Part shown: in pieces, positions 802 through 24,535 of the stretch
Layout: the number at the start of each line of letters is the position of its first letter
How positions within the stretch are numbered: position 1 is the first letter of the stretch
Source of the DNA: a virus
Virus record (IMG/VR): IMGVR_UViG_3300037585_000501
Span: 1-25,671 of that record
Direction: 5' to 3' (one strand)
DNA length: 25,671 nucleotides
Notes under the pieces: model-generated
What the model was told of the DNA's origin: nothing
The model's input: the letters and a program-made list of their open reading frames with translations, nothing else
The model's database searches: none
Translations under genes and position numbers: made by a program

Positions 802-813
802 TACTAATTAGTA
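802..813. promoter_or_regulatory. Perfect 12-bp palindrome before the DNA polymerase gene
   Basis: TACTAATTAGTA is a perfect 12-bp inverted repeat. It overlaps the stop codon of the 443-aa gene and ends 17 bp before the polymerase start. TATACT just upstream on the minus strand could be a -10 box, but no convincing -35 box accompanies it. It could be an operator or part of a promoter for the replication gene. It could also be chance in AT-rich sequence. Confidence 0.25.
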
Positions 814-9606: not shown

Positions 9607-9616
9607 TATAAATAGT
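9607..9616 (-). promoter_or_regulatory. Putative late-promoter box, copy 1 (ACTATTTATA)
   Basis: On the coding strand this reads ACTATTTATA. It lies between the terminator at 9627-9661 and the GAGGAG ribosome-binding site of the 331-aa gene, about 17 nt before the start codon. Six more boxes with the ACTATTTA core head other virion transcription units in this window. No conserved -35 element is seen upstream. A T4-late-like single-box promoter is the best reading. Confidence 0.6.
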
Positions 9617-9626
9617 TTGACAAAGC

Positions 9627-9661
9627 AAAAAGACCGGAGGGTTTAACGCCTGCCGGTCTTT
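9627..9661 (-). terminator. Rho-independent terminator after the tube-chaperone unit
   Basis: The minus strand forms a 9-bp stem AAAGACCGG/CCGGTCTTT with a 15-nt loop, followed by a short T run ending TTTTTGC. The upstream arm overlaps the last codons of the 69-aa ORF. It should end transcripts from the tail-tube unit. A promoter-like box follows 10 nt downstream. Confidence 0.75.
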
Positions 9662-9852
9662 CCTTTGTTGGCCTCTTGTATTTTTTCGTTCTCTTTCTCA
9701 ATTTGACTTGCGAGACGTTGAAGAAACCAGCGACGAATTGTTATTGGCAAGTTGTATGCCTCCATAAAAGACCAGTTTCCGTGATACTTTAATAGAAACA
9801 ATTCTTCATATACAGATTGTATATATTCGCTATCTAGACCAAAAAAAGTCAA
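9643..9852 (-). CDS. Small tail-assembly chaperone-like ORF, possibly reached by +1 frameshift (69 aa)
   Basis: This 69-aa frame overlaps the end of the gp26-like gene by 23 nt in the +1 frame. Its only early start is TTG 9852, which has no SD at usable distance. The protein (YEELFLLKYHGNWSFMEAYN, then LPITIRRWFLQRL) has the aromatic helix, N-LP and R-W-x-L-Q-R-L features of small proteins encoded just before tape-measure genes in T4-like phages. These are thought to act as tail-assembly chaperones. The overlap holds a run of seven T, where the gp26 reading TTT-TTT-TGG could slip to GGT and enter this frame. An AAGGAGGT lies just upstream. Either weak TTG initiation by coupling or programmed recoding could express it. 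The C-terminus (ENEKIQEANKGKTGRR) is highly charged. Confidence 0.65.
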   Translation of the reverse strand: MTFFGLDSEYIQSVYEELFLLKYHGNWSFMEAYNLPITIRRWFLQRLASQIEKENEKIQEANKGKTGRR

Positions 9853-10675
9853 CCGTTAAAGGCATTTCCACCTCCTTCTCAAATCCACAAGCATCGCAAG
9901 AGAACTCTTGCGTCATATCAAGACCCGGCTGGACCTTGGCGTATGCTGCGCGTAGATAACGAGAATCGAAGGCAGGAAGGGCATCAATCGCCCTATTAAT
10001 TAAACTTCTATCTTCATTGCCGTTAATAGACAAGGTAATCATTTTTAACTGGTCTGTGAGATTTGGCTCGTAGACTTTGGACTTTTTATTTGCTTGCATC
10101 TTAGCAAGCAGTTCATTTTCATCCTTGCCGGTAAGCAACCTTATTTCCATTTCGAACTTACTTCTTGGAAGTTTAACAATGAAAGTACGACGATCAGTTG
10201 GGGTAACATCATAATCGCCATAATCATCTCCCTCATAAGCACTAATTTCATTTAGATCAAATGTGTTCTCGGATGCAGCGCCACAACTAGGGCAAGTAAC
10301 CTTTGTTGTATAGTCTGCTCCAAAGCCATTAATTCTGGATGCCACAAGAATAGCGTTCTTATCTCCCGATAGGAGACTGGGAACTCTAAGAGTACCGTCA
10401 AGAATAATGTTTTTTAAGAACCGATCAAGTGCAAGGCCTTTCTTTAGAAGGGATGGAGAGGTTAGAATATCCTCGTCCTTTGCTGTCATAAACTTAATTT
10501 CAATCGAATCTTTTTTGTGAAGCGGGTGAACTTCCGAGTAGAATCTACCCTTTGATGGAAGGTCAACTATCTCTGTTGGTACAGAGAAGTCTAAAGGAGA
10601 ACGAGTCTCCTCATCTTGCGCTACAACAGGTGGTGCTTCAGCACCTGCTGCAAAACGCTTACTATTGTCTCTCAT
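9830..10675 (-). CDS. gp26-like baseplate hub subunit with zinc-ribbon cysteines (281 aa)
   Basis: The product resembles the T4 gp26 baseplate family (Pfam T4_baseplate type). It has a disordered N-terminus, then DLPSKGRFY at about 39-46, IEIKFMTAKDEDIL at 58-71 and LLKKGLALDRFL. Two CxxC pairs (CPSC 128-131, CDAC 260-263) could bind zinc. It ends PLTVDFFWSR. At 281 aa it is longer than T4 gp26 (208 aa). The start chosen is ATG 10675 after GAGGTG; a GTG six nt upstream overlaps the SD and is less likely. It follows the second tube gene by 27 nt. It overlaps the small chaperone-like ORF, and its last codons may be a frameshift site. The likely role is a hub component or assembly factor of the baseplate. 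Confidence 0.75.
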   Translation of the reverse strand: MRDNSKRFAAGAEAPPVVAQDEETRSPLDFSVPTEIVDLPSKGRFYSEVHPLHKKDSIEIKFMTAKDEDILTSPSLLKKGLALDRFLKNIILDGTLRVPSLLSGDKNAILVASRINGFGADYTTKVTCPSCGAASENTFDLNEISAYEGDDYGDYDVTPTDRRTFIVKLPRSKFEMEIRLLTGKDENELLAKMQANKKSKVYEPNLTDQLKMITLSINGNEDRSLINRAIDALPAFDSRYLRAAYAKVQPGLDMTQEFSCDACGFEKEVEMPLTVDFFWSR

Positions 10676-10702
10676 AAACACCTCATATTGTTTGTTTTAT
10701 TT

Positions 10703-11635
10703 TTATGGATCGCCGGTTATGGCGGAGTCGGATCCATCCGTACTTTTAGTTTTGGCCGGAAGGCCAACGCCGTTTTGTCTGCAATATTTATCGCCCTTGT
10801 AAAACTCTGCTTCTTCCACGACGGGTTCTTTGTTGGCAGTTTGGGCTGCGACATAAGCAATATATTTGTCCTTACATTTGCTAGTCGCAGTCGTTTTTGA
10901 AATTGGCTCTTCAAGCAATGCCGCAGCATCTTGGGATAACAATTTGGAATCAGGAAAATATGTAAAACCTTGTTCTTGGCCTATCTTAGGAAACTCGACA
11001 GTAAAGGCAGTATAATACCAAGTAAGAGTTATCTCAACTAATTCATTGCTGGAATAATCAAATTTTCCAAAATCTACTTGGTCAGGGTATGCATCATAAA
11101 GTGTCCACCTTTCTATATCATTACCTTTTTCATCTAACTGGTATATTTGCACGTCACCGATTGAATTTAAAAAAGATCTTGCATAATCTGATATATCTCC
11201 TCCGTTCTGGATCGCACCTCTTGCTTGTGAATCATTAAGACCGCCTCTTCGGAAAAGTCTTGCTATCTTTCTTGTGACATTTGGATAATACGGATCGACC
11301 AAAACCATTGTAATAGGCCGCATTGTGGGTGTCGTAACCCTTGGATTTGCTCTTGCACGCTGAAAACCTGTTAAGGCTTTCCCTTGTTCGTCGTCTGGCA
11401 AGTCCATGCCGGGCTTGTCGCAAGACTTAATATACCATACATCCGCACCAGTTAAGCCTACACTTTGCTTATCTTTAAAGGCATCGCCACCGGGTGCTTC
11501 ACTTTTTTCGTTTCTGGCGTCTTCTAAGCCAAGACCCGGTATAACCACCCTGAACCTAAACTGGGCTTTGGGGGCGCGAGTGCTATTGGTCCAAAACTGC
11601 GGGTCTACTCTGTCTGTAAAATCTTCAATAGACAT
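10703..11635 (-). CDS. Second tail-tube-like protein with C-terminal extension (310 aa)
   Basis: This is a paralogue of the adjacent gp19-like tube protein. Both begin with FWTNS..R.PK..FRFRV, and both contain a DE.GN..E.WTL block followed by a F..DY...L.E.T.T..Y strand pair. The paralogue adds an insertion near residues 35-60 (EDARNEKSEAPGGDAFKDKQ) and about 90 C-terminal residues beyond the tube fold, with two cysteines (KCKDKY, KYCRQN). In T4, gp48 and gp54 at the tube-baseplate junction are gp19-fold proteins. This copy could be such a junction or initiator ring. It could also be a second tube subunit. The start ATG follows AGAGG and lies 14 nt after the first tube gene. Confidence 0.75.
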   Translation of the reverse strand: MSIEDFTDRVDPQFWTNSTRAPKAQFRFRVVIPGLGLEDARNEKSEAPGGDAFKDKQSVGLTGADVWYIKSCDKPGMDLPDDEQGKALTGFQRARANPRVTTPTMRPITMVLVDPYYPNVTRKIARLFRRGGLNDSQARGAIQNGGDISDYARSFLNSIGDVQIYQLDEKGNDIERWTLYDAYPDQVDFGKFDYSSNELVEITLTWYYTAFTVEFPKIGQEQGFTYFPDSKLLSQDAAALLEEPISKTTATSKCKDKYIAYVAAQTANKEPVVEEAEFYKGDKYCRQNGVGLPAKTKSTDGSDSAITGDP

Positions 11636-11649
11636 TTAAGCCTCTGGTA

Positions 11650-12231
11650 TTAAACTGTAAATAACTTAGGAATACCGGGAGTACTAGGAGTCTCAAACGA
11701 GGCCCAATCATAACGCATTGTCATAGTGACTTCAGTGAGGTCTTCGTTACCGTAGTCCAACTCACCGAAAGTCAATGATTTAACCCACCCATTGTTAAGG
11801 GTCCATTTCTCCAAGGAGTTTCCTTCTTCATCGATCTGCTCAATAAGAACTTGACCCAATGCAGCAACAGAATCAGCCTTGGAGACAGTTGCAAAGTCAT
11901 TAGGGCCGTTAACACCAGCAGGGATACGGTATCCGGCTCTTTCGACCAACTGTGCAAGACTACCAGCCACATCAGGATCAGCAGGATCAACAAATGTAAT
12001 GGACACTTCATTCCACTCTGTACGAGCAGGCCAGTAGTAAGTATGGTTCAAATAACTGTGAGTTGATTCCGTAAAGGAAACCTCTGGCTTGGTTGCTGTC
12101 TTAGCAAACCACATGATACCACCGCCCAGAACAGGGTCTTCTTCTGCACCGGTAAAACTAACCCTAAATCTGAAGTTACGTTTTGGGTCTCTAACTCCTG
12201 AGTTAGTCCAAAAATTATTGGTCGTGGCCAT
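11650..12231 (-). CDS. Tail tube protein, gp19-like (193 aa)
   Basis: Length (193 aa against 163 in T4 gp19) and position directly after the sheath gene fit the major tail tube protein. It polymerises as hexameric rings inside the sheath. Visible features are the N-terminal FWTNSGVRDPKRNFRFRV strand, a KPEVSF segment (the T4-family K-P-x-x block), a W-NE-VSITFVDP strand and a C-terminal LTFGELDYGNEDLTEVTMT hairpin. SD AGGAG precedes the start, and the ACTATTTA box is about 21 nt upstream. It is the first gene of a unit that continues through the second tube gene and the gp26-like gene. Confidence 0.88.
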   Translation of the reverse strand: MATTNNFWTNSGVRDPKRNFRFRVSFTGAEEDPVLGGGIMWFAKTATKPEVSFTESTHSYLNHTYYWPARTEWNEVSITFVDPADPDVAGSLAQLVERAGYRIPAGVNGPNDFATVSKADSVAALGQVLIEQIDEEGNSLEKWTLNNGWVKSLTFGELDYGNEDLTEVTMTMRYDWASFETPSTPGIPKLFTV

Positions 12232-12252
12232 TATAAAATTTCTCCTGTTTGT

Positions 12253-12262
12253 AGTAAATAGT
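12253..12262 (-). promoter_or_regulatory. Putative late-promoter box, copy 2 (ACTATTTACT)
   Basis: In the 45-nt gap between sheath and tube genes, the coding strand reads ACTATTTACT. It shares the 8-base core ACTATTTA with the other boxes but lacks the TA ending. It lies about 21 nt before the tube start codon, just upstream of the AGGAG ribosome-binding site. Confidence 0.5.
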
Positions 12263-12276
12263 GTTTATCTATTTTT

Positions 12277-15228
12277 TTAGTCCTCAAAAGAGGCCCCTGA
12301 GCGTGTGATAATAAAGTCGATCGCGATAAACTCAATGGCGCGGGTAGGCTTGATAAAGATCTTCGCGTAGAGGATGTTTCTATCAACAAGGTCTGGGGTA
12401 GTGGTGGTTTCGTCAAGAACAATCTTGAAGTCATCAATACCAAAGTTAACTTTGACGCTGTTAAGGAACCTTTCTGCTCTCGACTTGAAGTCATTCCAAG
12501 TAGCCTCGACATTAGGCTGGAATAAAGTTCCCGTGGAGATTCTGGAGATACCTCGCTTAACGAAGATCATAAGACGGCGGATATTGATACGGTCAAGAGC
12601 CGACTGAGTTGCTTGAAGTGTCTTTTGTCCAAAGATAACGATGCCCTCTGCGGGGAACGATGCGATCGGGTTGATATTAACATCGTACAGATCGTCACGG
12701 TTGCGGGAGGTTAGTTTCTGCTCAACACCAACAACCGGGAGACCGCCGGCGCCAGTCGAAAGACCGCCACGATTGAATCCTGCGGGTGCGAACCAAACAT
12801 CCGAAGCTCTCTCAGTGTTTGCGAGAACACCAAGTGCGACAACCGAAGGTGGCACATAAAGGAGAGTTCCGTTAATATCATCTCTGATATTGACCCAAGG
12901 ATAGTAAGCTGCACCATAAGAGTTGTTAATATTTCGTGCTGTCATCTGTGTGATTGTTGTATCAATACTTCCCCTTCTAGTCGAAGCTGCGGCGTTCGAC
13001 TCATGTCTTGGAGTTAAGCCTCCTTCGACATCAATAATTGCAAGTGTATCTGCTCTAGACTCTGCTGTATCAATAATGTGCTTAGTTACGCGCTCATCGG
13101 TTATACCGGGCATTGAAAGAAGGTTCATTTGCGCCACTTCAGGATCAGCAACAATATCAACTGCTCTGCGAAGAGTGTGGTATACATAACTACTTTTCTC
13201 TGCTGGGTTGGTGCTAATCAGTGAGTTACGGAATGGATCACGCTCTGTGATATCAACACCGTCAAACCCACCAAAGAGAGGAGCCGTGAAACGATTGACT
13301 TTAGAATCAAGAATATTCTTGTAGCGGTTTGCAGTTAAAGTGCTGCCTCCAGAGCCGGATGAGTTCCAAGAAGTCCCTGCTACGACCGAGCCTGCTGTCC
13401 AATCTACTTTTGTAATCATTCTGGACGGCGACGAGTCAGAGAATGCGGTTCCATCCGTTGTAACAACAAGCTCATCCAATGTAAATACCCACTGATTAAC
13501 AAGGCCATTGGGTAGTGTACCCTTGCCAAAGTCATCAGCCCAAGAACTGTCGGCTACTACATCAGCACCAAAGGCTCTAAGATAATCAGGATAGCCCGGA
13601 TCATAAATATTCGAAGTAGAAGTTTTGGTGTTTTGTAAGCCAAAGAAAGCGTTTGTCGTAGGATCACAACCATCGCCGGAACCTGTTGAACTGACACCTA
13701 ATGCTTGTGGGCGAATACCTACTTTCGGAAAAGTAATACTTGCTGTTCCAAAGGGGTTAGTCGCTACGGCCGAGAACACAAACATACCACCGAGGTTAGT
13801 AGGCATGTTAACAACCGGAACACTACCTGATCCTAAAACATATGCACTGGCTACCGTGGCGGCGGTGGATCCACTATTGAAAGTAAAGCTTGGGAACCTT
13901 GGAGGACCAAAGACGCCAAACGGAAGAAGTTTTGAATCAATACCGCCTTCGAGAGCCGAGTTCATATGAGCACGAATATATTTTGAGCGATTAGGGTATT
14001 GGCCATACTCCCGGTACCTTTTCTCAGTATCGTCGTATTCTTGGTACCTATCGCCAATAACCAAAGGAAGATAGTTAGAGGAATTCTTATTAAGAGTACA
14101 TTCTGAATATCTCTCTAGAACAACCGGCGCTAAATCATTATCTTTTGCATCGCGAATAACTACGTCAAAAGTTCCAAATTCAACATTGTCATTACGAGAA
14201 TATTTGATATTATCGATAGAGACTTTAATGTCTCTCTGGAGTTGCGAACCATAGCCATTGATACCAATGAACTTAAATAGTTTGGTCATTTTGTTATATG
14301 TAAATGACGCGGTTGCGTCTAAGTTTTGAGCAAAGAACCACCCAGTGTGTGCGTCACGATATGCCATACGCTTATTGTGGTTACCGGCTTCTCCTGAGCC
14401 AGATACAACTGGGAGGATAACGCCACGACGGAGGGTGGCGGTGTTAAAACCACTATCAATCAAGTGTCTTTCATAAGTCTCGCCAAGCCAATAAGGCTTC
14501 GTGTCATCCGAAGACTCAATAGTAGTGTTTACCAATTGTGGATTGGTGTTAAAAAGTTTTCTGATATAACGGTCGCCAGAAGCATCTAATGTAGCTGTTT
14601 TGTTTTCTATCTCAGTGGATCCCTTTTGTAGAATCCTAATTTTAAACTGTCCGGAGGAATCGGAATCAACAATTGTCGCAACCCCCTCTTGATTTGTTGC
14701 GGCGCCGGATGCCTTGTAAGAACCAGACAAAACAGGCACCGAGCCACTGTTCATATACCACACAGCGGCAAGAGTTCCGTTATTGGTGCCAGACCCGGAA
14801 TCAAAAACAAACAGTCCATATGGGCCACCATTTGATGCAGCAACAGTATCAGGCGTATTAAGAGTTTCCCAGCCTGCTTTACCGTTTGCGTCAGCGTTAG
14901 GATCTTGCGTTCCCATTAATCGAATATACGTCACTGGTCCGACGCCAGCAGCAAGATAAGCCTGTGCAGCGTATGCACCATAAGTTGGGGACGAATAGTT
15001 GCCGTCACGCCAAGTGTCTTCGACACCACCTCTGCCCGCAATGGGGTTACCGAAAGTTTCTACAAACTCGGAAAAAGAATTAACTGTGGTTGGGACCATA
15101 CCCGGTCCTTTTTCTGCGCGACCAATGATAACTGGACCAACGTTCTCCGGTAACGCTGGGATCTGTGATTGGTCGATCTCATTCAGGAAAATACCCGGTG
15201 AAACAAATCTGAATTTATTGGCTGGCAT
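12277..15228 (-). CDS. Tail sheath protein, gp18-like, oversized (983 aa)
   Basis: This is the contractile tail sheath subunit. The N-terminal part has FVSPGIFLNEIDQS, GPVIIGRAEKGP and YAAQAYLAAGVGPVTYIRL, the conserved sheath start. The C-terminal 230 residues contain YYPWVNIRDD, DVWFAPAGFNRGGL (T4: W-x-SPAG-NRG), VIFGQKTLQ, the RRLMIFVKR helix and a closing domain ending FIAIDFII. Length is 983 aa against 659 in T4. The extra material sits between about residues 120 and 650 and is rich in Gly, Ser, Asn and Thr, consistent with surface-exposed insertion domains. SD AAGGAG precedes ATG 15228. The gene appears to form its own transcription unit, with putative promoter boxes on both sides. Confidence 0.92.
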   Translation of the reverse strand: MPANKFRFVSPGIFLNEIDQSQIPALPENVGPVIIGRAEKGPGMVPTTVNSFSEFVETFGNPIAGRGGVEDTWRDGNYSSPTYGAYAAQAYLAAGVGPVTYIRLMGTQDPNADANGKAGWETLNTPDTVAASNGGPYGLFVFDSGSGTNNGTLAAVWYMNSGSVPVLSGSYKASGAATNQEGVATIVDSDSSGQFKIRILQKGSTEIENKTATLDASGDRYIRKLFNTNPQLVNTTIESSDDTKPYWLGETYERHLIDSGFNTATLRRGVILPVVSGSGEAGNHNKRMAYRDAHTGWFFAQNLDATASFTYNKMTKLFKFIGINGYGSQLQRDIKVSIDNIKYSRNDNVEFGTFDVVIRDAKDNDLAPVVLERYSECTLNKNSSNYLPLVIGDRYQEYDDTEKRYREYGQYPNRSKYIRAHMNSALEGGIDSKLLPFGVFGPPRFPSFTFNSGSTAATVASAYVLGSGSVPVVNMPTNLGGMFVFSAVATNPFGTASITFPKVGIRPQALGVSSTGSGDGCDPTTNAFFGLQNTKTSTSNIYDPGYPDYLRAFGADVVADSSWADDFGKGTLPNGLVNQWVFTLDELVVTTDGTAFSDSSPSRMITKVDWTAGSVVAGTSWNSSGSGGSTLTANRYKNILDSKVNRFTAPLFGGFDGVDITERDPFRNSLISTNPAEKSSYVYHTLRRAVDIVADPEVAQMNLLSMPGITDERVTKHIIDTAESRADTLAIIDVEGGLTPRHESNAAASTRRGSIDTTITQMTARNINNSYGAAYYPWVNIRDDINGTLLYVPPSVVALGVLANTERASDVWFAPAGFNRGGLSTGAGGLPVVGVEQKLTSRNRDDLYDVNINPIASFPAEGIVIFGQKTLQATQSALDRINIRRLMIFVKRGISRISTGTLFQPNVEATWNDFKSRAERFLNSVKVNFGIDDFKIVLDETTTTPDLVDRNILYAKIFIKPTRAIEFIAIDFIITRSGASFED

Positions 15229-15276
15229 CTAAAAGTCTCCTTAACATAGCAATCGTTCTACGTCGCTGCACTCAAA

Positions 15277-15286
15277 TATAAATAGT
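15277..15286 (-). promoter_or_regulatory. Putative late-promoter box, copy 3 (ACTATTTATA)
   Basis: The coding strand reads ACTATTTATA, preceded by AAT, in the 79-nt gap before the sheath gene. It lies about 48 nt upstream of the start codon, giving the longest leader after the 152-aa gene. It is identical over 10 bases to copies 1, 4 and 5. Confidence 0.6.
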
Positions 15287-15307
15287 ATTGTAGGAGAGCA
15301 AAGACCC

Positions 15308-16228
15308 TTACTCCCTATAAAAACCTTCGTCGTCGTCCAAGAAGGTATTTATGTCGCCAACGATGACCCTTTCTCTTGGGATCTTAACGTCAACATAGTT
15401 TTGAACAACAGAGTATTTTGGCTTAGGATCATTCTTGCCTTGGCCCATCAAATATCCTAATACTCTGATGTTAATATCGGTCACATAAGTTCTTTCTTCT
15501 TCGCCTAGATCTGCGACGTTATTGGAATAACCAATATCGCCTTCGATAAAGGATTCGAATCGATGACCATCATGATTGATAAAGAAAGAGTTCATTTGTC
15601 CTGTGAGAGTATAGAAAGGTTGTGTCAGATCATTCATCTGTTGGACATAATCTGTTCTTATCTTGAGAGAGTACTGCGTCTTCACCCATATTGGAATAGG
15701 TTGAAACACTGTTTCAAACACAACCCTACTTTTATCTTTTTTTCCTCTTGGGAAGTTTTGTTGACCATTGCCAACGTTGTTATTCGCACCGAACTTTCTA
15801 GATGAGAAAGCATTTGAAAAGTTTGATGTTTTCCTTTGGTTTATGAGACGAGCGGCTGGAACGTTGACTCTACGGGTTTTATAATACGACGCTCCGGAGT
15901 CTGGAATGTGTGCCTGAAACGTTCCCTTAAACGCAGGGTCCTTGGTCATAGCTGTGCGCTCAAGAGTCATGAGAGGAAGCTTCAGGGACCCATTATTATC
16001 CCTAAGATCTCTATTGTCTTTGATTTGGAATGCTCGCTCGGAAGAAACCCAAATAAGTGGTGTCTTCTTAGATCCCTTATTAGTCGTGGTATGTAGATTT
16101 AAATTATTATCAAGGAAAGAGAATAGAGCCTGATCAATTGTTTCGATCGTTGAAGGCATAAGGTTTATTTCTTTTATGATGCCGTCTGCACCGTCTATCT
16201 CTGTATATGAATAATCTTTAGGTGGCAT
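15308..16228 (-). CDS. Tail completion / sheath-terminator protein, gp15-like (306 aa)
   Basis: The order neck (gp14-like), this gene, sheath (gp18) matches T4 13-14-15-(16-17)-18. The pattern also fits T4 gp15: an early helix (TIDQALFSFLDNN), an IWVSSERAFQ segment, LKLPLMTLER, then YSLKIRTDYVQQMNDLTQPF and a late strand pair. T4 gp15 has equivalent VPITYASKE, LP-RINLHL and TRYEDDMFQIVEQILPYF blocks. A basic, Asn-rich insertion (about 130-165) is probably flexible. The start ATG lies inside the gp14-like gene (11-nt overlap) after GGGAGGA. In the virion it should cap the tail tube and join it to the neck. Similarity is from motif reading, so the family name is likely but unproven. Confidence 0.72.
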   Translation of the reverse strand: MPPKDYSYTEIDGADGIIKEINLMPSTIETIDQALFSFLDNNLNLHTTTNKGSKKTPLIWVSSERAFQIKDNRDLRDNNGSLKLPLMTLERTAMTKDPAFKGTFQAHIPDSGASYYKTRRVNVPAARLINQRKTSNFSNAFSSRKFGANNNVGNGQQNFPRGKKDKSRVVFETVFQPIPIWVKTQYSLKIRTDYVQQMNDLTQPFYTLTGQMNSFFINHDGHRFESFIEGDIGYSNNVADLGEEERTYVTDINIRVLGYLMGQGKNDPKPKYSVVQNYVDVKIPRERVIVGDINTFLDDDEGFYRE

Positions 16229-16712
16229 CGAATAAATCCTCCCGTGCTCGGATACACTTAGCAGATATCTCTAAGAGATGATCTACTTGACCATAAAGCG
16301 GTCTTGGTTCCGATAAACTAACTATCTCGTAGAAAAACTTTCCGTATACCACGAAGTCACCTTCTCTCACAAAAAGGTCTTGATCTTCGGTTAGGCGCCG
16401 CTTATGGAAGTGGACTGTGATTTCTGTGGTCTTATCTAGACCTATACTGTTTTCAAACTTTGTGTTTATCCCGTCAAACTCTACAAGAGCGTTCACTCGG
16501 ATGGGAGGCAAAAAGTTCTTGTGAATAGCCTCTCCATACAGTGAGTGAAAGTCTGTTGTTTGAGTGTCTATTGGATAATAGGCGATGGTTTGCCCAATGA
16601 CGCGTTCTATGAGTTCATCATTAACTTGTTTAACGAGATCTCTTTCTTTCTTCCCGGTGAATAGTGGGGGAGGCGGGGCATCAGGTTGTGACCATTTATT
16701 ATCTTGCGACAT
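16218..16712 (-). CDS. Neck protein, gp14-like (164 aa)
   Basis: The 164-aa product has a Pro-rich start (DAPPPPLFTG) and a helix (KKERDLVKQVNDELIERVIG). It then shares the order of T4 gp14 features: YYP, LYGE.., a beta stretch, and REGDFVVYGKFFYEIVSL (T4: EGD-IYFP..LFEI). T4 gp14 (256 aa) forms part of the neck joining head and tail. This version is shorter. The start follows AGGGG, with 4 nt after the previous stop. It is translated with the gp15-like gene, which overlaps it. The membrane is not involved. The alternative is a generic head-tail connector. Confidence 0.7.
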   Translation of the reverse strand: MSQDNKWSQPDAPPPPLFTGKKERDLVKQVNDELIERVIGQTIAYYPIDTQTTDFHSLYGEAIHKNFLPPIRVNALVEFDGINTKFENSIGLDKTTEITVHFHKRRLTEDQDLFVREGDFVVYGKFFYEIVSLSEPRPLYGQVDHLLEISAKCIRAREDLFDAT

Positions 16713-16716
16713 TTAC

Positions 16717-18027
16717 TTACCCCTGATAAATCATTAATGGAATACCGCCGTTTACCTTATCTATGGCTTCAATCTTTTCAGCGTCTTGTTGTGCGAGGGC
16801 ATTATATGTCATTTCATCCAGAATAGTTTTTAGCTCTTCCTTGAGATAATCTTGCTCTTCTTTTGCTTGTCCCAAGAGGTCAGCCGAGTTAAGAGTTACA
16901 TTATCACCGGGGATTGGGATACTACCACCAAACTTGCCTCGTATCTGGCCTAGCATCTCTTTACAGAGCGCGAGAGCGTAACGACGGATCCAGTGCTTGC
17001 CAATGGCGTTAACGTTCTTGTAGGGTATGTTATCGAACGGCAGAGTATTCATATTATTGATACCATCTGTTCCATTTTTTCTATCGGCGTCTTCGGTCCA
17101 AGGGTCTTTATCAATGGTAAATTGAACATACATGTTTGGAACAAACCCATGTGGTATTGGAAATATTCTTAATTTGTTATTAAACAATTCATATGAGTAG
17201 TGAGATAGCCTTGTATGTAAATGATCTTCATACGCCATGGCTTGCAGTTTATTTTGCCATACTGGTATAATTTCAAAAGTACTATCATCTGAGTATTGGC
17301 CATAATAGTTAAGATTGCCCACTACATTTAGGCCTCCATAGTAACCATAGAATCTCCACATTGCGCCGGGGGTCTTATAAAATACTCTGTGTATTTTAAC
17401 TTTTTTGTTACCAACAAGATTAGCGTATGGTACTGCGTCACCGGTGGCTTCATCTTTGTTGGTTGCTGCTGATCTAGAAATAATTGTTTGTATATCATAG
17501 TCTTGCACACTGGCTGTTAAAGCAAAGGATGCAGAATAAAAAGTATTATTACCTCCGACGCCCGCCTCCTCAGAAAAACCTTCCCCAACACGACGAGCGT
17601 ATTCTACCTTAAATGTAGGAAAGGCTAAATTAACTGCCGAACCAGATGCATCACCACCTGTCATTTGTCCGTCGTGATCAAACGTGCCAGTAGCGAAGCC
17701 CAACAAACTGCCAAGAACATTTTTGGCTTGATGCTTATTAATATGATAAGCATACTCTAAGACTGATTCTTCGTAGGCAGCATAGACATTTCCTACTGTT
17801 AACTCGATATCAAGGACATCACCGCCAAGTTTCTTATAAGTGTAAGCAACTTGATCGGCCGCTCCTGAAACAAAACTAGCGTCAAATAGGTCCCCACCTG
17901 TCGCGTATATGCCAAAAGGATAGTGAGTAGCGTTTGCAGCACCATTTCCAGTTGCAGCAACACTGCCAGTGGATGTCAGTATAACCTTACTTGTCGTGCT
18001 AGCAGGTGTTAAAGTAGGAACAGCCAT
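16717..18027 (-). CDS. Putative neck/head-tail connector protein, gp13 position (436 aa)
   Basis: This first gene of the neck unit sits where T4-like phages encode gp13. Residues 1-60 are Ala/Thr/Gly-rich. Then comes a helical segment at about 78-112 (VGNVYAAYEESVLEYAYHIN, then KHQAKNVLGSLLG) reminiscent of head-tail adaptor helices. A long beta-rich middle (MWRFYGYYGG, QFTIDKDPWTE) follows. A C-terminal helix bundle (QAKEEQDYLKEELKTILDEM) ends the protein. It is longer than T4 gp13 (309 aa). SD AGGAG precedes the start, with a promoter-like box about 20 nt upstream. It is probably a neck ring protein. Identity with gp13 rests mainly on gene order. Confidence 0.6.
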   Translation of the reverse strand: MAVPTLTPASTTSKVILTSTGSVAATGNGAANATHYPFGIYATGGDLFDASFVSGAADQVAYTYKKLGGDVLDIELTVGNVYAAYEESVLEYAYHINKHQAKNVLGSLLGFATGTFDHDGQMTGGDASGSAVNLAFPTFKVEYARRVGEGFSEEAGVGGNNTFYSASFALTASVQDYDIQTIISRSAATNKDEATGDAVPYANLVGNKKVKIHRVFYKTPGAMWRFYGYYGGLNVVGNLNYYGQYSDDSTFEIIPVWQNKLQAMAYEDHLHTRLSHYSYELFNNKLRIFPIPHGFVPNMYVQFTIDKDPWTEDADRKNGTDGINNMNTLPFDNIPYKNVNAIGKHWIRRYALALCKEMLGQIRGKFGGSIPIPGDNVTLNSADLLGQAKEEQDYLKEELKTILDEMTYNALAQQDAEKIEAIDKVNGGIPLMIYQG

Positions 18028-18046
18028 ACGTTTTTCTCCTATACAT

Positions 18047-18056
18047 TATAAATAGT
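18047..18056 (-). promoter_or_regulatory. Putative late-promoter box, copy 4 (ACTATTTATA)
   Basis: The coding strand reads ACTATTTATA directly after the T-rich tail of the terminator at 18061-18094. It lies about 19 nt before the start codon of the 436-aa neck gene. Terminator then box is the same arrangement as at 9607-9661 and 18933-19006. Confidence 0.6.
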
Positions 18057-18060
18057 TTAC

Positions 18061-18094
18061 ACAAAACAAAACCCCCCACCAATAAGGTGAGGGG
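18061..18094 (-). terminator. Rho-independent terminator after the lysine-rich gene
   Basis: The minus strand has a 9-bp stem CCCCTCACC/GGTGGGGGG (one G-U pair) with loop TTATT, followed by TTTTGTTTTG. It lies 27 nt past the stop codon of the lysine-rich protein gene and closes the two-gene unit. Confidence 0.8.
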
Positions 18095-18120
18095 TGTGTT
18101 AAGTCGTTACTCTCAAAGTA

Positions 18121-18417
18121 TTAGGTATCTGCTTTCTTTTTAGTCGTTCTTTTTCTTGTCGTTGTTTTCTTGACTGGCTTCTTTTTAGCGACAGTCTTTT
18201 TAGGTGGTGCTTTCTTTGCTTTTGGAGCCGGAGTTTCCTCAACTGGAGACTCGGTGGGAAGAGCAGGAGCGGTAGGCTCCTCTGCAACAACTAACTCCAC
18301 CTTTTCTTCTTCGACAGTGGGCTCTGACTTTTCAGCCAGAGCCTTGACGAACGAGTGATTAGCAAACTTCTTTCCAAACTTTTGAGGGTATCTCTTAAGT
18401 CTGTTCTTCTTACCCAT
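18121..18417 (-). CDS. Lysine-rich protein with histone H1-like tail (98 aa)
   Basis: The product has three parts. A conserved-looking basic N-terminus (GKKNRLKRYPQKFGKKFANH) comes first. An acidic centre (about 33-65, rich in E, V and P) follows. The C-terminal tail of K, A, P and T repeats (KKAPPKKTVAKKKPVKKTTT) resembles histone H1 or AlgP-type tails. The start chosen is ATG 18417 after GAGGT; a TTG codon directly upstream is unlikely. It lies 9 nt after the 152-aa gene and before a terminator, so the two are probably co-expressed late. It could bind packaged DNA, or bind negatively charged surfaces on the capsid. Function is unproven. Low-complexity tails arise easily, so similarity to histones need not mean descent. 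Confidence 0.7.
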   Translation of the reverse strand: MGKKNRLKRYPQKFGKKFANHSFVKALAEKSEPTVEEEKVELVVAEEPTAPALPTESPVEETPAPKAKKAPPKKTVAKKKPVKKTTTRKRTTKKKADT

Positions 18418-18426
18418 CAATTACCT

Positions 18427-18885
18427 CTATGAAGCAGCAAACGCAGTGGTAACGGTGCCCTTAGTTAAAAGATCCGCCTTAACATGCCAAACTGAACCAT
18501 CACAGTAAATTTCAACAGTAGAGCCTGCGTGTACACCATTACTGGCGTTAGCACTACTTGTCACCTTGAAAACAAGGTGCGAAGCCACTGTGGACGTAAC
18601 GTTCGCAGTGTGGGTGCTGCCTGCTTTAGCTTCAACGAGAGCCATGCCTTCCATTCCTCCATTAGGGGAAACGATTCTAAGAAGGTCGGCATTGTTTTGC
18701 AAGGTTGCACTAACAATAAATTTGAAATAGGCGCCGGCTTTAAGTGCTGGTAAGGTCACCTCTGTGTTTGGGGTGCCCAAGAAATAGACTTCACCCGATT
18801 CTGCTGACGCAATAGTTTTAGCCGCAGTAATAGTTTCAACTCTCATGAGCGATGCATTTCTAGACGCTCTTGCTACTTTAGACAT
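18427..18885 (-). CDS. Putative capsid decoration / virion protein (152 aa)
   Basis: No family is firmly recognised. The 152-aa product has a short basic start (SKVARASRNASLMR), then a beta-rich body with alternating hydrophobic residues and many Gly, Ala, Thr and Val. GEVYFLGTPNTEVTLPAL, AYFKFIVSATLQ and GSTVEIYCDGSVWHV look like successive strands. Beta-sandwich decoration or fibre-tip proteins have this look. It heads the unit directly downstream of the major capsid terminator, with SD AGGAG and its own promoter-like box. A head-associated structural role is inferred from composition and position. Confidence 0.6.
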   Translation of the reverse strand: MSKVARASRNASLMRVETITAAKTIASAESGEVYFLGTPNTEVTLPALKAGAYFKFIVSATLQNNADLLRIVSPNGGMEGMALVEAKAGSTHTANVTSTVASHLVFKVTSSANASNGVHAGSTVEIYCDGSVWHVKADLLTKGTVTTAFAAS

Positions 18886-18932
18886 ATTAATAATCTCCTA
18901 TTATGAAAAAGGCAAACCGCCCTGTCTTCAGT

Positions 18933-18942
18933 TATAAATAGT
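18933..18942 (-). promoter_or_regulatory. Putative late-promoter box, copy 5 (ACTATTTATA)
   Basis: The coding strand reads ACTATTTATA, preceded by AT. It lies about 47 nt upstream of the 152-aa gene and 31 nt downstream of the capsid terminator. It is a perfect match to copies 1, 3 and 4. Confidence 0.6.
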
Positions 18943-18973
18943 ATGGTGCGCTTGTAAAAGGATTTGTAAACAT

Positions 18974-19006
18974 AAAAAAAGCCCCGCTATCCGAAGATAG
19001 CGGGGC
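18974..19006 (-). terminator. Strong terminator with UUCG loop after the major capsid gene
   Basis: The minus strand forms a perfect 11-bp stem GCCCCGCTATC/GATAGCGGGGC closed by a TTCG tetraloop, with seven T immediately after. This is the strongest terminator in the window. It lies 24 nt past the capsid stop codon. The loop should stabilise the 3' end of the capsid mRNA. Confidence 0.95.
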
Positions 19007-19030
19007 CAGTCGTAAAAGACTTGCTAGTTA

Positions 19031-20719
19031 TCAGCTACCAGCCTCACCATTAAGGCCGCGACAAATAACCAGACCGTACATATCAGGACGCACCATCTTC
19101 TTGGCGTACCGAGTCATCACGCCCTTCCGGGGGATGAAGTCTTCAGTACCGAAGATAGTCGGCGTGACCTGCAAAGGCACATACGGAGCGTAAACATAGC
19201 CCGACTCAAGGAAGCTACCACCCTTACGGCCGACGAGCAGCACGTTACGAGGGAAGTAAGGATCGACATAGATGTCGAACTTCTTCGAAACCGAACCAAC
19301 GTTCACAGCACCTGCGGTGCCACGATCAGCGTCAGCGGTAACACTTGCACGGAAACCAGCGGTAAACTCAAGGATGTTAGCAACTTCAGGTGAGGTCACC
19401 ACGAAGTTAGCACCACCCCGCAGAGTCTTGCGGTGGATCTGTGCCGAGACATCATTGATAGTCTCGATGAGGGTTTCGTACCACTCGGAAACCGTACCAG
19501 TGAAGTCAGGAGCAGCCGAAGTTGCACCAATCTCAGCACCAGTTGTGCGGTTCACGAAGAGACCCGGCGAACGCGACCAGTAATAAGTACCAGCGGTTGC
19601 ACCTTCGATAAGATCGTTAAGGATCTCACGGTCGATCTCAAGAGCAATCTGCTCGGAGAGAATCGAGGTCAACTCAACCTCAGCGTCGAGGTTGTGGTAG
19701 GCATTCAGGTCCTGACCAAGTTCCGGCGACCACTTAGCTTTGAGCTTACGGGTTTGTGCCGTAACAGCGATCGAGTCCACCTTGATGTCGATCTCAGGGA
19801 TCTCACTCTTGCCAACTGCGGAACCATTGTTACCAGTACCGAAGGAAGGCTCCTCAAGGCCCCAAGTATCATCACCAACAACAGCACCGATGGCGCCGCC
19901 AGCTTGGAAGTCATCCGTGATCGGATAAGCAACGGTGTAACCAGTGTTAGCAAGCGTTCCAAAAGTACTGGAATGCGTGAACACGAAGGTAGCAGTTGTA
20001 CCATCCGAAGTAGTCAGGCGACGAACCTGTGAAGAACTACTGAGGTTCGGTGGCGTAACAACAACATCAACCAACTCATCGGTGTTAAGTTGTGACATCT
20101 GAGCCAAAGGAATCGTAACGGTCTGTGCGAACACGCCATCAGCGATGTCGGGGTCGAAACGAATCAACTTGTCTGTAGTGTCGGATGCGCCAACCGTAAA
20201 GGTTGCTTGTCCAAGAGTACCAGTTGCAACGGTGGTCGAAGCCGTAGGCATCGAGTAACCACTCTGCAAGTTGTAAAGACCACCTTCATCTTCTGTGATA
20301 GCAGTGACACCAAGCTGGATGCCCTTACCAACACGACCACCACCATAAACAGACTCGCCGGCGCCGAGGCCCAGACGTGCTTCTTCATAAGTGAAGTCGA
20401 GGAAGAAGATGAGACCACTAGGGAGACTCATCGGCTGAACGCTAACGAGATCGTTGGCCAAAAGACCACCGAACACGCGGCGAACGAGCGGGAAAGCGAC
20501 GGAAGCAAAACCTTCCACATCGCCTGCTGCCATAGAAGAAGCCTCTTTCAGAAGCTGCTTGGCTTGGTTTTCGAGAAGTCGAGCCATTCCGTTCTTCGAA
20601 GAATCATCACTGAGTCCTTCGAGGAGTCCGGTCTTTTCCCACTTGGAGAGAAGAGCATCGCCTTCTTGTTTGAGATCGCGATTCACGATCCCTTCTGTTA
20701 ATTTATTTAATATTGACAT
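19031..20719 (-). CDS. Major capsid protein, gp23-like (562 aa)
   Basis: This is the main shell protein of the head. Features are an N-terminal propeptide-like helical region (KWEKTGLLEGL, MARLLENQAKQLLKEA), then FASVAFPLVRRVFGGLLAND and the signature VSVQPMSLPSGLIFFLDF at about 92-109. Further on are RKTLRGGANFVVTSPEVANIL and a C-terminus RYAKKMVRPDMYGLVIC. The propeptide has L-x-E sites of the kind cut by gp21-type proteases; LKE59-ASS is a good candidate. The start is ATG 20719 after AAGGAGG with 8-nt spacing. A GTG nine nt upstream overlaps that SD and is rejected. T4 gp23 is 521 aa. The gene follows the scaffold gene and ends in a strong terminator. Codon use is biased towards C-ending codons, as expected for high expression. 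Confidence 0.95.
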   Translation of the reverse strand: MSILNKLTEGIVNRDLKQEGDALLSKWEKTGLLEGLSDDSSKNGMARLLENQAKQLLKEASSMAAGDVEGFASVAFPLVRRVFGGLLANDLVSVQPMSLPSGLIFFLDFTYEEARLGLGAGESVYGGGRVGKGIQLGVTAITEDEGGLYNLQSGYSMPTASTTVATGTLGQATFTVGASDTTDKLIRFDPDIADGVFAQTVTIPLAQMSQLNTDELVDVVVTPPNLSSSSQVRRLTTSDGTTATFVFTHSSTFGTLANTGYTVAYPITDDFQAGGAIGAVVGDDTWGLEEPSFGTGNNGSAVGKSEIPEIDIKVDSIAVTAQTRKLKAKWSPELGQDLNAYHNLDAEVELTSILSEQIALEIDREILNDLIEGATAGTYYWSRSPGLFVNRTTGAEIGATSAAPDFTGTVSEWYETLIETINDVSAQIHRKTLRGGANFVVTSPEVANILEFTAGFRASVTADADRGTAGAVNVGSVSKKFDIYVDPYFPRNVLLVGRKGGSFLESGYVYAPYVPLQVTPTIFGTEDFIPRKGVMTRYAKKMVRPDMYGLVICRGLNGEAGS

Positions 20720-20760
20720 TTTAATCACCTCCTTTTAATATTATAAATTGGATTATTCTG

Positions 20761-21729
20761 TCATTTAAGTCCTGCCAATCTTTGGAAACGATCCTTCGCA
20801 ATGGAATCCCCTTGCGCTGGTTTTTCTTTTCTTCGTCTTGGTAGGGTCGATGAAGGTCTACTGATTGCTTCGCTCAACGATTTTGGTTTTCTATTACTAG
20901 AAGAACCCGCTGCGCTTTGAAGGGTTTCATATATAACCTTCGCCTCTTCAACAGAATCAGCCTTGCGAATAGACTCGACAACTTTTGACTTTTGTCGCTC
21001 ATTCAGGGAGGCACTATTCAATGCCTGATTCATATAGAGAAGTTTCGCATTTTCCAAGAGGGTTTGTTCAACCTTCTCTTTCAATGCTAAGATGCCTTCA
21101 ACAAGCTTTTTATTGTCGCTTGTCAAAGATTCGTTTGTAATGGTCAGACGATCGTGGGCATCCTGAAGAGCTTTAATTTCCTCTTGGGCCTCCGTTCCGC
21201 TTCGCCTAGCCAATTCTAATTCTTCTGCGTATTGCATTTCACCTTGTGGGGTTGCGAGCCAGCCAGTCTTAACGGGCATTACATCAACAACCAATTCCTC
21301 GACAAGTTCTTTAATAGAGTCCTCATCAAGTTCAATCTCTTCTTCATCTAACTCAAGTTCTTCTTGGAGGGGAAGGGTTTCTTCCTCTTCTTCAGGCTCC
21401 ATTCCAAGGTCGGCCATAAGGTCTTCTTGGCCAACAGGCTCGCCTTCTAATTCATCGGCCATGGCCTTAAGATCATCAAGGCTAAAAGTTACAACCTCTT
21501 CTTCTTCCTTATCAGGACAAGGGCACATTTCCTCTTCTTCGGCAGCAGCGAAGGCAGGCTCTTCCATGGCGCCCATCATATCCATTTCATCTTCTTGCTC
21601 TAAGATAGTTTCAACAACATTCTTCACTTCGTTGTTATACTTTTCCAGAATAGTAGACTCGGCGTTCTTTAACGCTGCGTCTCTAAGTTCTTGTGCGTCG
21701 ATAATTGCTTGTTCTAGGAGTGTTGGCAT
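20761..21729 (-). CDS. Prohead core scaffolding protein, gp22-like (322 aa)
   Basis: This acidic scaffold directly precedes the capsid gene, as in T4. Residues about 1-45 are helical. About 45-150 are extremely Glu-rich, with an unusual CPCP within EEEEM..DKEEEE. About 165-265 form a coiled coil (AEELELARRSGTEAQEEIKA, LKEKVEQTLLENAKLLYMNQAL). The C-terminus is basic and Ser/Pro-rich, ending DRFQRLAGLK, and is the likely capsid- or protease-interacting tail. The segment LNERQKSKVVESIRKADSVEEA is typical of gp22 relatives from memory. Several I/L-x-E sites suggest digestion by the prohead protease after assembly. T4 gp22 is 269 aa. Confidence 0.85.
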   Translation of the reverse strand: MPTLLEQAIIDAQELRDAALKNAESTILEKYNNEVKNVVETILEQEDEMDMMGAMEEPAFAAAEEEEMCPCPDKEEEEVVTFSLDDLKAMADELEGEPVGQEDLMADLGMEPEEEEETLPLQEELELDEEEIELDEDSIKELVEELVVDVMPVKTGWLATPQGEMQYAEELELARRSGTEAQEEIKALQDAHDRLTITNESLTSDNKKLVEGILALKEKVEQTLLENAKLLYMNQALNSASLNERQKSKVVESIRKADSVEEAKVIYETLQSAAGSSSNRKPKSLSEAISRPSSTLPRRRKEKPAQGDSIAKDRFQRLAGLK

Positions 21730-21767
21730 GCTTAAATCCTCGTGTTAGAAACACTTATTTTCTCATA

Positions 21768-21777
21768 AATAAATAGT
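21768..21777 (-). promoter_or_regulatory. Putative late-promoter box, copy 6 (ACTATTTATT)
   Basis: The coding strand reads ACTATTTATT, then TATG, in the 69-nt gap between the bS21 and scaffold genes, about 38 nt before the scaffold start. It matches the other boxes at 9 of 10 positions. It would drive scaffold plus major capsid, since the scaffold-capsid gap has no full box. Confidence 0.5.
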
Positions 21778-21798
21778 ACCCTAATTACAGAAAAACCT

Positions 21799-22074
21799 TT
21801 AAGTCTTCTTGTTTTGCTCATTTAGCTTTTTTAGAACCGCTTGACGGCGGGCTCTAGCTCGTTTTCGCTTAACAGATGGCTTTTCGTAATAGTCGTATTT
21901 TCTTACTTGCTCTATGACTTTTTCTTTTTTACACTTCTTAAGAAATCGCTTTATAGTGCGTTCAGGATGTTCGCCTTCTTTGGCGTAGGTAACAACGTGG
22001 GCCGGGTGTTTTGTCTTATGGTAAAACTTCCTTGGATTGCGTCCCCGGTTGTTCCTTTTATTGTGATAACTCAT
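21799..22074 (-). CDS. rpsU: Phage-encoded ribosomal protein bS21 homologue (91 aa)
   Basis: Residues about 33-85 match bacterial small-subunit protein bS21. [20 protein letters not shown] aligns with E. coli [40 protein letters not shown] aligns with [20 protein letters not shown]. bS21 sits near the anti-Shine-Dalgarno helix of 16S rRNA and assists initiation. Phage copies are known from marine phages, including Pelagibacter phage HTVC008M. This copy has an extra N-terminus of about 27 basic, Asn/His/Arg-rich residues that bacterial bS21 (about 70 aa) lacks. It lies between a virion gene and the scaffold gene, in a late-type unit. It may replace host bS21 and bias ribosomes towards phage mRNA, which is inference. 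SD GAGGG precedes the start. Confidence 0.88.
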   Translation of the reverse strand: [91 protein letters not shown]

Positions 22075-22086
22075 TATCCCTCTTTA

Positions 22087-22506
22087 TTAACTATCTACGC
22101 CCTCAAGACCTTCCCATGAAGATGTTAAGTGGCGAGCATTTATATTTGTAAGTCCAGCAGTCACAGTAGCGTTAACAGTTCCGGCCTCTGCTGATAATAA
22201 ATATAATCTGGTGACCCTAAAGTCGGCTGAAAAAGATGCCGACTCTGCAATTGTAATAAAATTATTGTTGGCTTCGTCTAAACCACCAGTAGCAAAAGCC
22301 AATCGTATATCACAAGATCCCGAGGCGTTTGCCCCATCGTTCCTAATCGTAACAAATTTAGTTACTTTTGGGAAAGCAACTTCAAGTGCCGTGCTAACAG
22401 CACCTGATAGTGGCACTGTCAAACTTGATTTAACATAGGGCCTTGAGCTAACTTGGTAAGATCCAACGTGATTTAGACCTGCTGTATATTTAAAATTGTC
22501 TGGCAT
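22087..22506 (-). CDS. Putative virion structural protein (139 aa)
   Basis: This beta-rich 139-aa protein starts with NFKYTAGLNHVGSYQVSSRP. It continues with alternating strands (VTKFVTIRNDGA, CDIRLAFATGG, SADFRVTRLYLL), a Thr/Val/Ala strand and a short C-terminal helix (SSWEGLEGV). A small beta-sandwich of this kind suggests a capsid or neck decoration protein. I recall similar proteins near the head genes of marine T4-like phages but cannot name a family. SD AGAGAGG, with an ACTATTTA box 20 nt upstream overlapping the previous stop. It is co-transcribed with the bS21 gene 12 nt downstream. Confidence 0.6.
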   Translation of the reverse strand: MPDNFKYTAGLNHVGSYQVSSRPYVKSSLTVPLSGAVSTALEVAFPKVTKFVTIRNDGANASGSCDIRLAFATGGLDEANNNFITIAESASFSADFRVTRLYLLSAEAGTVNATVTAGLTNINARHLTSSWEGLEGVDS

Positions 22507-22525
22507 CGTATTACCTCTCTTCCTT

Positions 22526-22533
22526 TAAATAGT
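22526..22533 (-). promoter_or_regulatory. Putative late-promoter box, copy 7 (ACTATTTA)
   Basis: The coding strand reads ACTATTTA followed by AAGG, with its first base in the stop codon of the 142-aa gene. It lies about 20 nt before the 139-aa virion gene. The 3' TA of the full box is replaced by AA, so this is the weakest match along with copy 2. Confidence 0.4.
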
Positions 22534-23986: not shown

Positions 23987-24535
23987 CTATTCATATTGAT
24001 AAGATTGCCAGTAAGGGCCGTAAGTATAGCCGGGGCGAATGGTTCCCTTTTCAGGTGCTTGTGGGACTTCGCCAAGTTCTGTCGAATCTTCTTCTTCAGG
24101 TTCTGTAAAGTAATCTGTTTCCATTTCGTCAAACTTTTCGACGAATTCAAAATATGGCCGCTCTTCATCAATATACTTCGAAATATTGAGAATGGCCATG
24201 TTAATAACGTTTAATTCGTCAGATGATAATAATTGACCTTCCATTGATCCGTATATAGAGCCACCCTGCACAGAGTCCGGAGACACAAGACCTTTCTTTA
24301 CTAAAAAAGAAAACAATCTGTCTTGGGCGCCGTACACCATCTCAGACATAATATCCTTTGCAATTGCCAAAACTTTATTCTTACTCTTCATAATAATGAT
24401 ATCAATATCGGCATGGTCAGAAATAAAATAATCACCATTAGCAGTTCTTCTTATCTGAAGTTCAACTTCTGCTATCGGATCTGCTTTCTTGGGTTCTTGC
24501 GGCTGCTTGGAGCCAACGGTGATTTTGATAGCCAT
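23987..24535 (-). CDS. Uncharacterised acidic protein in head operon (182 aa)
   Basis: The start chosen is ATG 24535, which overlaps the previous stop as TAATG and has AAGGA 12 nt upstream. An ATG twelve nt earlier (24547) directly abuts that SD. The N-terminal half has a strand-rich segment (VELQIRRTANGDYFISDHAD, IDIIIM) and a helix. A middle block YGSMEGQLLSSDELNVINMA, then ILNISKYIDEE, follows. The C-terminal 50 residues are very acidic and then Tyr/Gly-rich (GYTYGPYWQSYQYE), probably disordered. No known family is recognised. Tight coupling to its neighbours suggests a part in head assembly or portal-proximal structure. Confidence 0.6.
   Translation of the reverse strand: MAIKITVGSKQPQEPKKADPIAEVELQIRRTANGDYFISDHADIDIIIMKSKNKVLAIAKDIMSEMVYGAQDRLFSFLVKKGLVSPDSVQGGSIYGSMEGQLLSSDELNVINMAILNISKYIDEERPYFEFVEKFDEMETDYFTEPEEEDSTELGEVPQAPEKGTIRPGYTYGPYWQSYQYE

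Follow-up and report, generated by a model that had tools for sequence, protein, structure and literature searches.

A candidate two-element late promoter, with a gp55-type sigma factor as its probable reader, in uncultured T4-like myoviruses

Late transcription in phage T4 is the standard case of a promoter that lacks a -35 element and is coupled to replication through the sliding clamp; its sigma factor, gp55, has no C-terminal helix-turn-helix and works together with gp33 and the sliding clamp gp45. Two-domain factors of the sigma-70 family, among them SigI and the extracytoplasmic function (ECF) factors SigH and SigR, carry a region 2 and a C-terminal helix-turn-helix and serve two-element promoters, and ECF -35 elements often begin GGAAC. 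Here we analyse a stretch of 25,671 nucleotides (the window; IMG/VR virus record IMGVR_UViG_3300037585_000501, positions 1 to 25,671), 25.7 kb from a T4-like myovirus with its long open reading frames (ORFs) on the minus strand; the record is a fragment and the genome incomplete. Seven copies of the octamer ACTATTTA stand here before virion genes, and we consider this box very probably the -10 part of a late promoter, where "late" is taken from the genes served. That the promoter comprises two elements and has a gp55-type sigma factor as its reader likewise appears likely from the sequences.

In the available excerpts of two papers, T4 late promoters have no conserved -35 element, and upstream of the box gp33 contacts only the DNA backbone (PMC2988020, PMC7892883). 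The closest published core found in the excerpts at hand is that of Aeromonas phage Aeh1, whose late box, predicted in silico, reads CTAAATA from -12, with a/g C at -13/-12 (PMC1524935, PMC2988020); the same excerpts make no mention of a -35 element. Compared by its published box only, Aeh1 has A at -9 and -8, where the family described here has T, A or C and then T. Like a T4 late promoter, the present box precedes virion genes as an AT-rich octamer placed at about -13 to -6, keeps the TAnnTA of TATAAATA in register (PMC1524935, excerpt), and has a sigma factor of the gp55 family encoded in large relatives. At the same time, it differs from T4 in its core, ACTAhTTA and not TATAAATA, in a conserved upstream element, GGnnTTT, and in a sigma factor that is longer at its C-terminus. 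The box is T4-like in place and gene class, but it fails two defining T4 features, the exact sequence and the absent -35 element. For pelagimyophages, a late-promoter search by cyanophage methods was reported as unsuccessful (PMC7029224, excerpt), and the open PubMed Central literature searched, as far as its text was accessible, describes neither this box nor a gp55 that has a region 4.

The core box at the heads of virion units

An earlier note on this DNA, made from the letters alone, had placed seven cores on the coding strand in gaps at the heads of transcription units, and all seven are found there on the minus strand, with the following accompanying elements.

22526..22533, minus strand: late box core ACTATTTA, before ORF 22087-22506; predicted +1 at about 22520; GGCTTT present upstream, exact GGnnTTT absent
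21770..21777, minus strand: late box core, before the scaffold-position gene 20761-21729; predicted +1 at about 21764
21791..21797, minus strand: upstream element GGnnTTT of the 21770 promoter, offset -20
18935..18942, minus strand: late box core, before ORF 18427-18885; predicted +1 at about 18929; without GGnnTTT
18980..19007, minus strand: terminator hairpin after the major capsid gene, directly before the 18935 box (terminator scan)
18049..18056, minus strand: late box core, before the neck gene 16717-18027; predicted +1 at about 18043
18069..18075, minus strand: GGnnTTT of the 18049 promoter, offset -19 and also -18; overlaps the 3' arm and T run of the terminator
18071..18095, minus strand: terminator hairpin before the 18049 box (terminator scan)
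15279..15286, minus strand: late box core, before the sheath gene 12277-15228; predicted +1 at about 15273
15300..15306, minus strand: GGnnTTT of the 15279 promoter, offset -20
12255..12262, minus strand: late box core, before the tube gene 11650-12231; predicted +1 at about 12249; without GGnnTTT
9609..9616, minus strand: late box core, before ORF 8594-9589 (ATG at 9589); predicted +1 at about 9603
9629..9635, minus strand: GGnnTTT of the 9609 promoter, offset -19
805..812, minus strand: candidate eighth box, variant ACTAATTA, 19 nt before the ORF starting at 785

The eighth box is a weak candidate, palindromic and without GGnnTTT, and the label "scaffold" for 20761-21729 comes from gene position only. 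Four boxes are identical over ten bases, as had been claimed (ACTATTTATA, four copies, 4/4 on the minus strand), and the claimed 17-48 nt to the start codon are right if the ten-mer's end is taken as the origin; measured from the core's end, the distances are 19, 40, 49, 21, 50, 23 and 19 nt, from the box at 22526 down to that at 9609. The window contains 10 copies of ACTATTTA on both strands, whereas 100 shuffles averaged 1.28 and never exceeded 5. Two further copies reported in coding sequence are indeed there (14274 and 23786, minus strand, within ORFs), but there is another at 6453 on the plus strand. Of the three boxes said to follow terminators, two do so by the scan, which finds strong hairpins before 18935 and 18049; the third hairpin, before 9609, is seen by eye only (9-bp stem, loop of about 15, T run), and a scan allowing loops of 3-8 does not find it. 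No sense-strand TATAAATA occurs in the gaps, as had been noticed, or anywhere else in the window, and its four plus-strand copies are late boxes read in reverse.

The box is carried far beyond the window. We took as relatives the best 80 loci of at least 600 IMG/VR matches, which with the window make 81 contigs, oriented by gene strand. In these ACTATTTA is the top-ranked non-coding 8-mer, with 225 sense and 0 antisense copies in about 70 kb, as against 61 sense and 9 antisense copies in about 874 kb of coding sequence, so the motif is not, as the earlier note had allowed it might be, equally frequent inside genes or on the other strand. (For the 225-site count and a 200-site logo, no or only exact duplicates were removed; a 359-site set, used below, excludes near-duplicates.) Two variants follow the same strand, ACTAATTA with 60 sense to 3 antisense copies and ACTACTTA with 31 to 0, and every other single-base change occurs at most 16 times. 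Because these three forms dominate and other single changes are rare, we write the core as ACTA[T>A>C]TTA.

It also recurs in the corresponding gaps. For each relative of a window protein we searched the 110 nt before the start codon, accepting only alignments that begin within the first 15 residues and counting only distinct upstream sequences, so that misplaced starts were dropped. The core precedes 144/166 unit heads and 14/301 other genes (antisense cores: 2/166 and 1/301), and its absence from the same gaps in relatives, which by the earlier note's own reckoning would have told against a promoter, is not what is seen. By unit head, it is present upstream of the sheath gene in 34/34 cases, the scaffold-position gene in 35/36, ORF 18427 in 7/7, ORF 22087 in 9/10, the neck gene in 46/61 and the tube gene in 13/18, and no relative of ORF 8594 passes these limits; among genes that are not heads, it precedes the capsid gene in 1/64, the protease gene in 0/23 and the gp15-like gene in 0/32. 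Nine of the 14 non-head cores belong to ORF 24535, which was scored as non-head though head-like in relatives. Relatives of this ORF (24535-25362) have the late box before the gene in 9/18 cases, or in 17/18 if the shorter CTAhTTA is accepted, and because about half carry the full box, the gene looks like a unit head in relatives. The distance from box to start codon differs between genes, from roughly 10 to 100 nt. Weighing against the promoter reading, 15 of the 61 neck gaps lack the core; in the eight of these inspected, the upstream gene extends up to the neck gene.

The upstream element

The earlier note had seen no shared -35 element, and here it must be corrected: in 4/7 window boxes GGnnTTT starts 20-18 nt before the core, against a background of 122/25591 sense-strand window positions, and the element is real in relatives. 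In a logo of the 200 distinct non-coding sites, counted from the core, GG occupies -20/-19 and TTT occupies -16 to -14. The 359 non-redundant sites come from 80 contigs, and among them 89 have a GGnnTTT beginning at -20, 34 at -19, 23 at -18 and 20 at -21. Every other offset has 0 to 9, except for a minor rise at -41 to -38, where 11 are reached. With each site counted once, 115/359 have the element at -21 to -18, where 200 shuffles gave a mean of 3.2 and a maximum of 9. In T4, treated by the same procedure, TATAAATA (16 to 7) and words containing GTTTAC rank high, and GGnnTTT appears once, at -12, among 29 non-coding late boxes.

Downstream, the thirteenth position from the first base of the core is a purine in 78% of sites, as against 48-58% at positions 25-44. 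Were transcription to start there, the core would occupy -13 to -6, in the same register as T4 TATAAATA.

Several counts speak against the upstream element as a general part of the promoter. The exact GGnnTTT is missing at -21 to -18 in 244/359 sites and in 3/7 window sites; 10/98 coding copies of the box also have it (antisense copies: 0/27); and part of the signal overlaps terminator tails, so that 115/359 falls to 43/190 once sites with hairpins are set aside. Nonetheless, a pure terminator-tail artefact is not a full explanation, for the element persists at hairpin-free sites.

The gp55-type sigma factor and its C-terminal domain

The putative reader is a sigma factor of about 235 residues, traced through weak Pfam hits in two relatives. 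The earlier note's suggestion that the genome be searched for a gp55-like factor bears out in part, since large relatives encode one, but none was found in the window fragment. Among 20 relatives picked by their capsid, it is present in 3/3 records over 100 kb; the capsid gene in turn is present in 7/15 sigma-bearing records, and further sigma relatives are 32 loci, one on the query's own contig, from one search and, from another, 580 matching stretches, of which 80 were kept, partly from the same contigs. Microcystis phage Mel-JY01 has a distant copy, and Rhodothermus phage RM378 and T4 have none by the same search. All 8 large sigma-bearing records compared with the gp55 family profile phrog_234 match it (E 6.5e-5 to 1.6e-10), and Flavobacterium phage immuto does so weakly (E 0.008). 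Fold comparison of the sigma model places T4 gp55 (7d7c) first, with Z 10.9 over 115 residues and a root-mean-square deviation of 4.6, other sigma factors tying with it within 1 Z. The protein aligns with T4 gp55 across the region-2 stretch, a region supported by both phrog_234 and the fold, and T4 gp55 ends about 50 residues earlier at the C-terminus.

Other results weigh against the assignment. The factor was found in 0/17 of the capsid-picked fragments of 24-79 kb; phrog_234 at E<=1 also matches 7/14 control genomes; Foldseek gave no hit at E<=0.001; and a profile of the 28-member sigma alignment, compared with T4 gp55 alone, reached a probability of 1.2%, which is not significant. Because of this last result, the gp55 assignment rests on phrog_234, the fold and the alignment. 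Pfam Sigma70_r2 matches the protein under its cut-off only, and in a scan of 22 records it exceeds the cut-off solely in RM378 and is weak in two relatives. RM378 has a different sigma factor (phrog_1740), with which profile comparison of the 28-sigma alignment is not significant, and its capsid region contains no sense-strand ACTAhTTA. Searched by sequence against solved structures, the protein returned five RpoS rows at E 0.27-0.97 and one unrelated chain; a search starting from the Mel-JY01 sigma found no relative.

Profiles for gp33 (phrog_254) and gp45 (PF02916), positive in T4, match 0/8 large relatives, a count that does not establish loss of the clamp pathway, since diverged homologues could escape the profiles. 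Single-sequence searches of 1089 ORFs from six contigs with T4 gp43, gp62, gp44, gp45, gp32, gp59 and gp33, made without a positive control, gave no match at E<=0.1; only T4 gp46 and gp47 matched, weakly. Twenty selected large ORFs of one contig include glycosyltransferases, nucleotide-sugar enzymes and VanY-like, DnaG-like primase and SbcC-like proteins, and neither a clamp nor a polymerase is among those 20.

The last 75 residues of the sigma factor, aligned over 34 relatives with the immuto lineage included, are predicted to form a helix-turn-helix-like bundle (predicted local distance difference test score 84, predicted template modelling score 0.68). Six of the top seven structures matched by this domain are sigma factors, with Z 5.2-5.8: SigH four times (one a SigH/E chimera), SigF, and SigR region 4. 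In this respect the protein resembles the two-domain sigma-70-family factors; unlike the ECF factors and SigI, its sequence is nearest gp55, and its Foldseek structural matches are not significant. Whether the domain acts like sigma region 4 and reads GGnnTTT is, on the model, a finely balanced matter. Against it, the best match of all is the response regulator DesR (Z 6.3), the Z values lie within the tool's noise range, Pfam Sigma70_r4 matches 0/28 sigma members at E<=1, and Mel-JY01 and immuto carry the long sigma factor without GGnnTTT. Because the structural matches are in the noise range and Sigma70_r4 does not match, we put the link between domain and element forward conditionally.

Mel-JY01 and immuto merit a closer comparison, the immuto scan covering all but the last 410 bases. 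Like the family described here, they have long gp55-type sigma homologues and sense-strand boxes sharing TATTTA (for Mel-JY01/immuto, sense vs antisense, ATATTTAT 15 vs 1 and TATATTTA 21 vs 2); unlike it, their boxes lack AC at -13/-12 as well as GGnnTTT. Their recognition-helix region differs from that of this family and could thus read another sequence. In immuto, many boxes have the form GTTG-N20-TATATTTA, similar to Bacteroidota host promoters. Promoters like GTTG-N20-TATATTTAGGTATCAATAATTAAAAC, at least 10 of them and nearly identical, cluster at about 60-77 kb in the stretch 60001-80000 of immuto and by sequence look like a host-type early class.

These observations bear on the alternative that survives best, in which the gp55-type sigma factor reads the core only and GGnnTTT belongs to a separate phage activator, much as MotA binds near -30 at T4 middle promoters, or owes part of its presence to selected overlap with terminator tails. 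In favour of this, sites preceded by a hairpin have GGnnTTT more often, it is absent from many promoters, Mel-JY01 and immuto do without it despite their long sigma factor, and the fold resembles region 4 only weakly; the fixed spacing, however, is found also at hairpin-free sites (43/190), and the extra C-terminal domain is present and predicted to be helix-turn-helix-like. On balance we regard such core-only reading as possible but rather unlikely.

Promoter classes, remaining alternatives and gene context

The relation of the box to other promoters was followed in six large contigs that hold both the sigma and the capsid gene (120 to 193 kb, with almost every gene on a single strand). The core is present in 66/293 gaps of at least 40 nt, in 35/66 of those within 20 kb of the capsid gene and 31/227 of those elsewhere (Fisher p 2.7e-10). 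Sigma-70-like sites have the opposite distribution, 0/66 near the capsid gene and 36/227 elsewhere, and CTTGACA and TATAAT abound where a gap has no core; the two kinds meet in 1/66 core-bearing gaps. With the core near the capsid gene, TTGACA/TATAAT elsewhere and the two rarely together, there are two promoter classes in these contigs, of which the box marks mainly the virion class.

The same contigs bear on the possibility that a host sigma factor, housekeeping or alternative, reads the box. We claim no host, because two metagenome-assembled genome (MAG) contigs are labelled in conflict (Flavobacteriales and Actinomycetes), and some phage genes do use host sigma factors. Still, a distinct TTGACA/TATAAT class lies away from the capsid region and coincides with the core in that single gap, and on this ground the box is rejected as a sigma-70-type host promoter; and relatives encode a gp55-type sigma factor. 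The Bacteroidota housekeeping consensus is TTG-N19-TAnnTTTG; the corresponding pattern TTG-N18-21-TAnnTTTG occurs in 0/227 gaps without the box, and the box itself was rejected as such a promoter, having AC where TA is required. A host reader is therefore quite improbable in our estimation, and the CTTGACA/TATAAT promoters, with no Bacteroidota-type pattern in the box-less gaps, argue from sequence against a Bacteroidota host. One MAG contig with this sigma factor carries the label Flavobacteriales.

Least probable of all is that the box is no promoter but an RNA-level element, for processing or for enhancing translation, or that it is a backward-facing promoter of the T4 type: it does lie close before start codons, and four window boxes contain a reversed TATAAATA, but two boxes come after strong terminators, the distance to the start varies between genes (roughly 10-100 nt), and the fixed-spacing upstream element and the purine-rich start region both lie in the sense direction. 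Read backward, the family core is TAADTAGT and not TATAAATA, and in the six large contigs, where almost every gene lies on a single strand, backward promoters would serve few genes; the backward reading is rejected.

The genes around the boxes are those of a virion. Head families matched in the window are a head maturation protease, a bS21-like protein, the major capsid protein and a head-tail adaptor; tail families are a sheath of 983 residues, two tube-like proteins, a baseplate hub and a baseplate wedge subunit, and a gp15-like protein scores under its family cut-off. The nearest named capsid relatives are those of Mel-JY01 (38%) and RM378 (36%); two uncultured records reach 40% and, over 60% of the protein, 43%, and a search of plasmids with the capsid protein gave no match. 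The bS21-like ribosomal protein gene (21799-22074; PF01165, E 4e-12) lies within the head operon, and Mel-JY01 likewise has RpsU between its protease and capsid genes. In the sheath (12277-15228) the family match falls chiefly in the C-terminal third. Two adjacent genes at 10703-12231 both match the tail tube family phrog_4542, which suggests a tube duplication. The edge ORF at 3-785, which comes after baseplate-like genes, has a weak match to the DNA polymerase family phrog_17 (E 6e-7).

Overall, the earlier proposal, by which a phage sigma factor reads the box as a diverged late promoter, has good support. The box keeps to one strand, falls between genes, is conserved at the same gene heads and clusters around the capsid gene; a gp55-type sigma factor is also encoded by relatives. 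Two parts of that proposal have to change, for the box does not stand alone, GGnnTTT lying upstream at a fixed spacing in the place of a -35, and the promoter is less alien to T4 than was thought, with TAnnTA in register and CTAAATA in Aeh1. Both elements, their spacing and strand, their place at virion unit heads and their conservation are observed directly. The boxes would then be the -10 parts of late promoters in a large uncultured group of T4-like myoviruses, laid out as GGnnTTT, about 13 nt, ACTA[T/A/C]TTA, about 5 nt and a purine start site. The phage's own gp55-type sigma factor, on the host RNA polymerase core, would be the reader: its region-2-like domain would bind the core box, and its extra C-terminal helix-turn-helix, like sigma region 4, might read GGnnTTT.

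Tentatively, and with less confidence than in any of these parts, we suggest that a whole T4-like lineage may carry out late transcription with a gp55-type sigma factor whose own DNA-binding C-terminal domain reads a real -35 element, needing neither gp33 nor the sliding clamp, and thus intermediate between the two-domain sigma factors and the stripped-down gp55 of T4. ACTAhTTA with GGnnTTT offers a working late-promoter consensus for uncultured T4-like phages, and, if the proposal is true, a T4-like lineage that combines a conserved upstream element with a lengthened gp55 would reveal how the T4 system arose or was lost.

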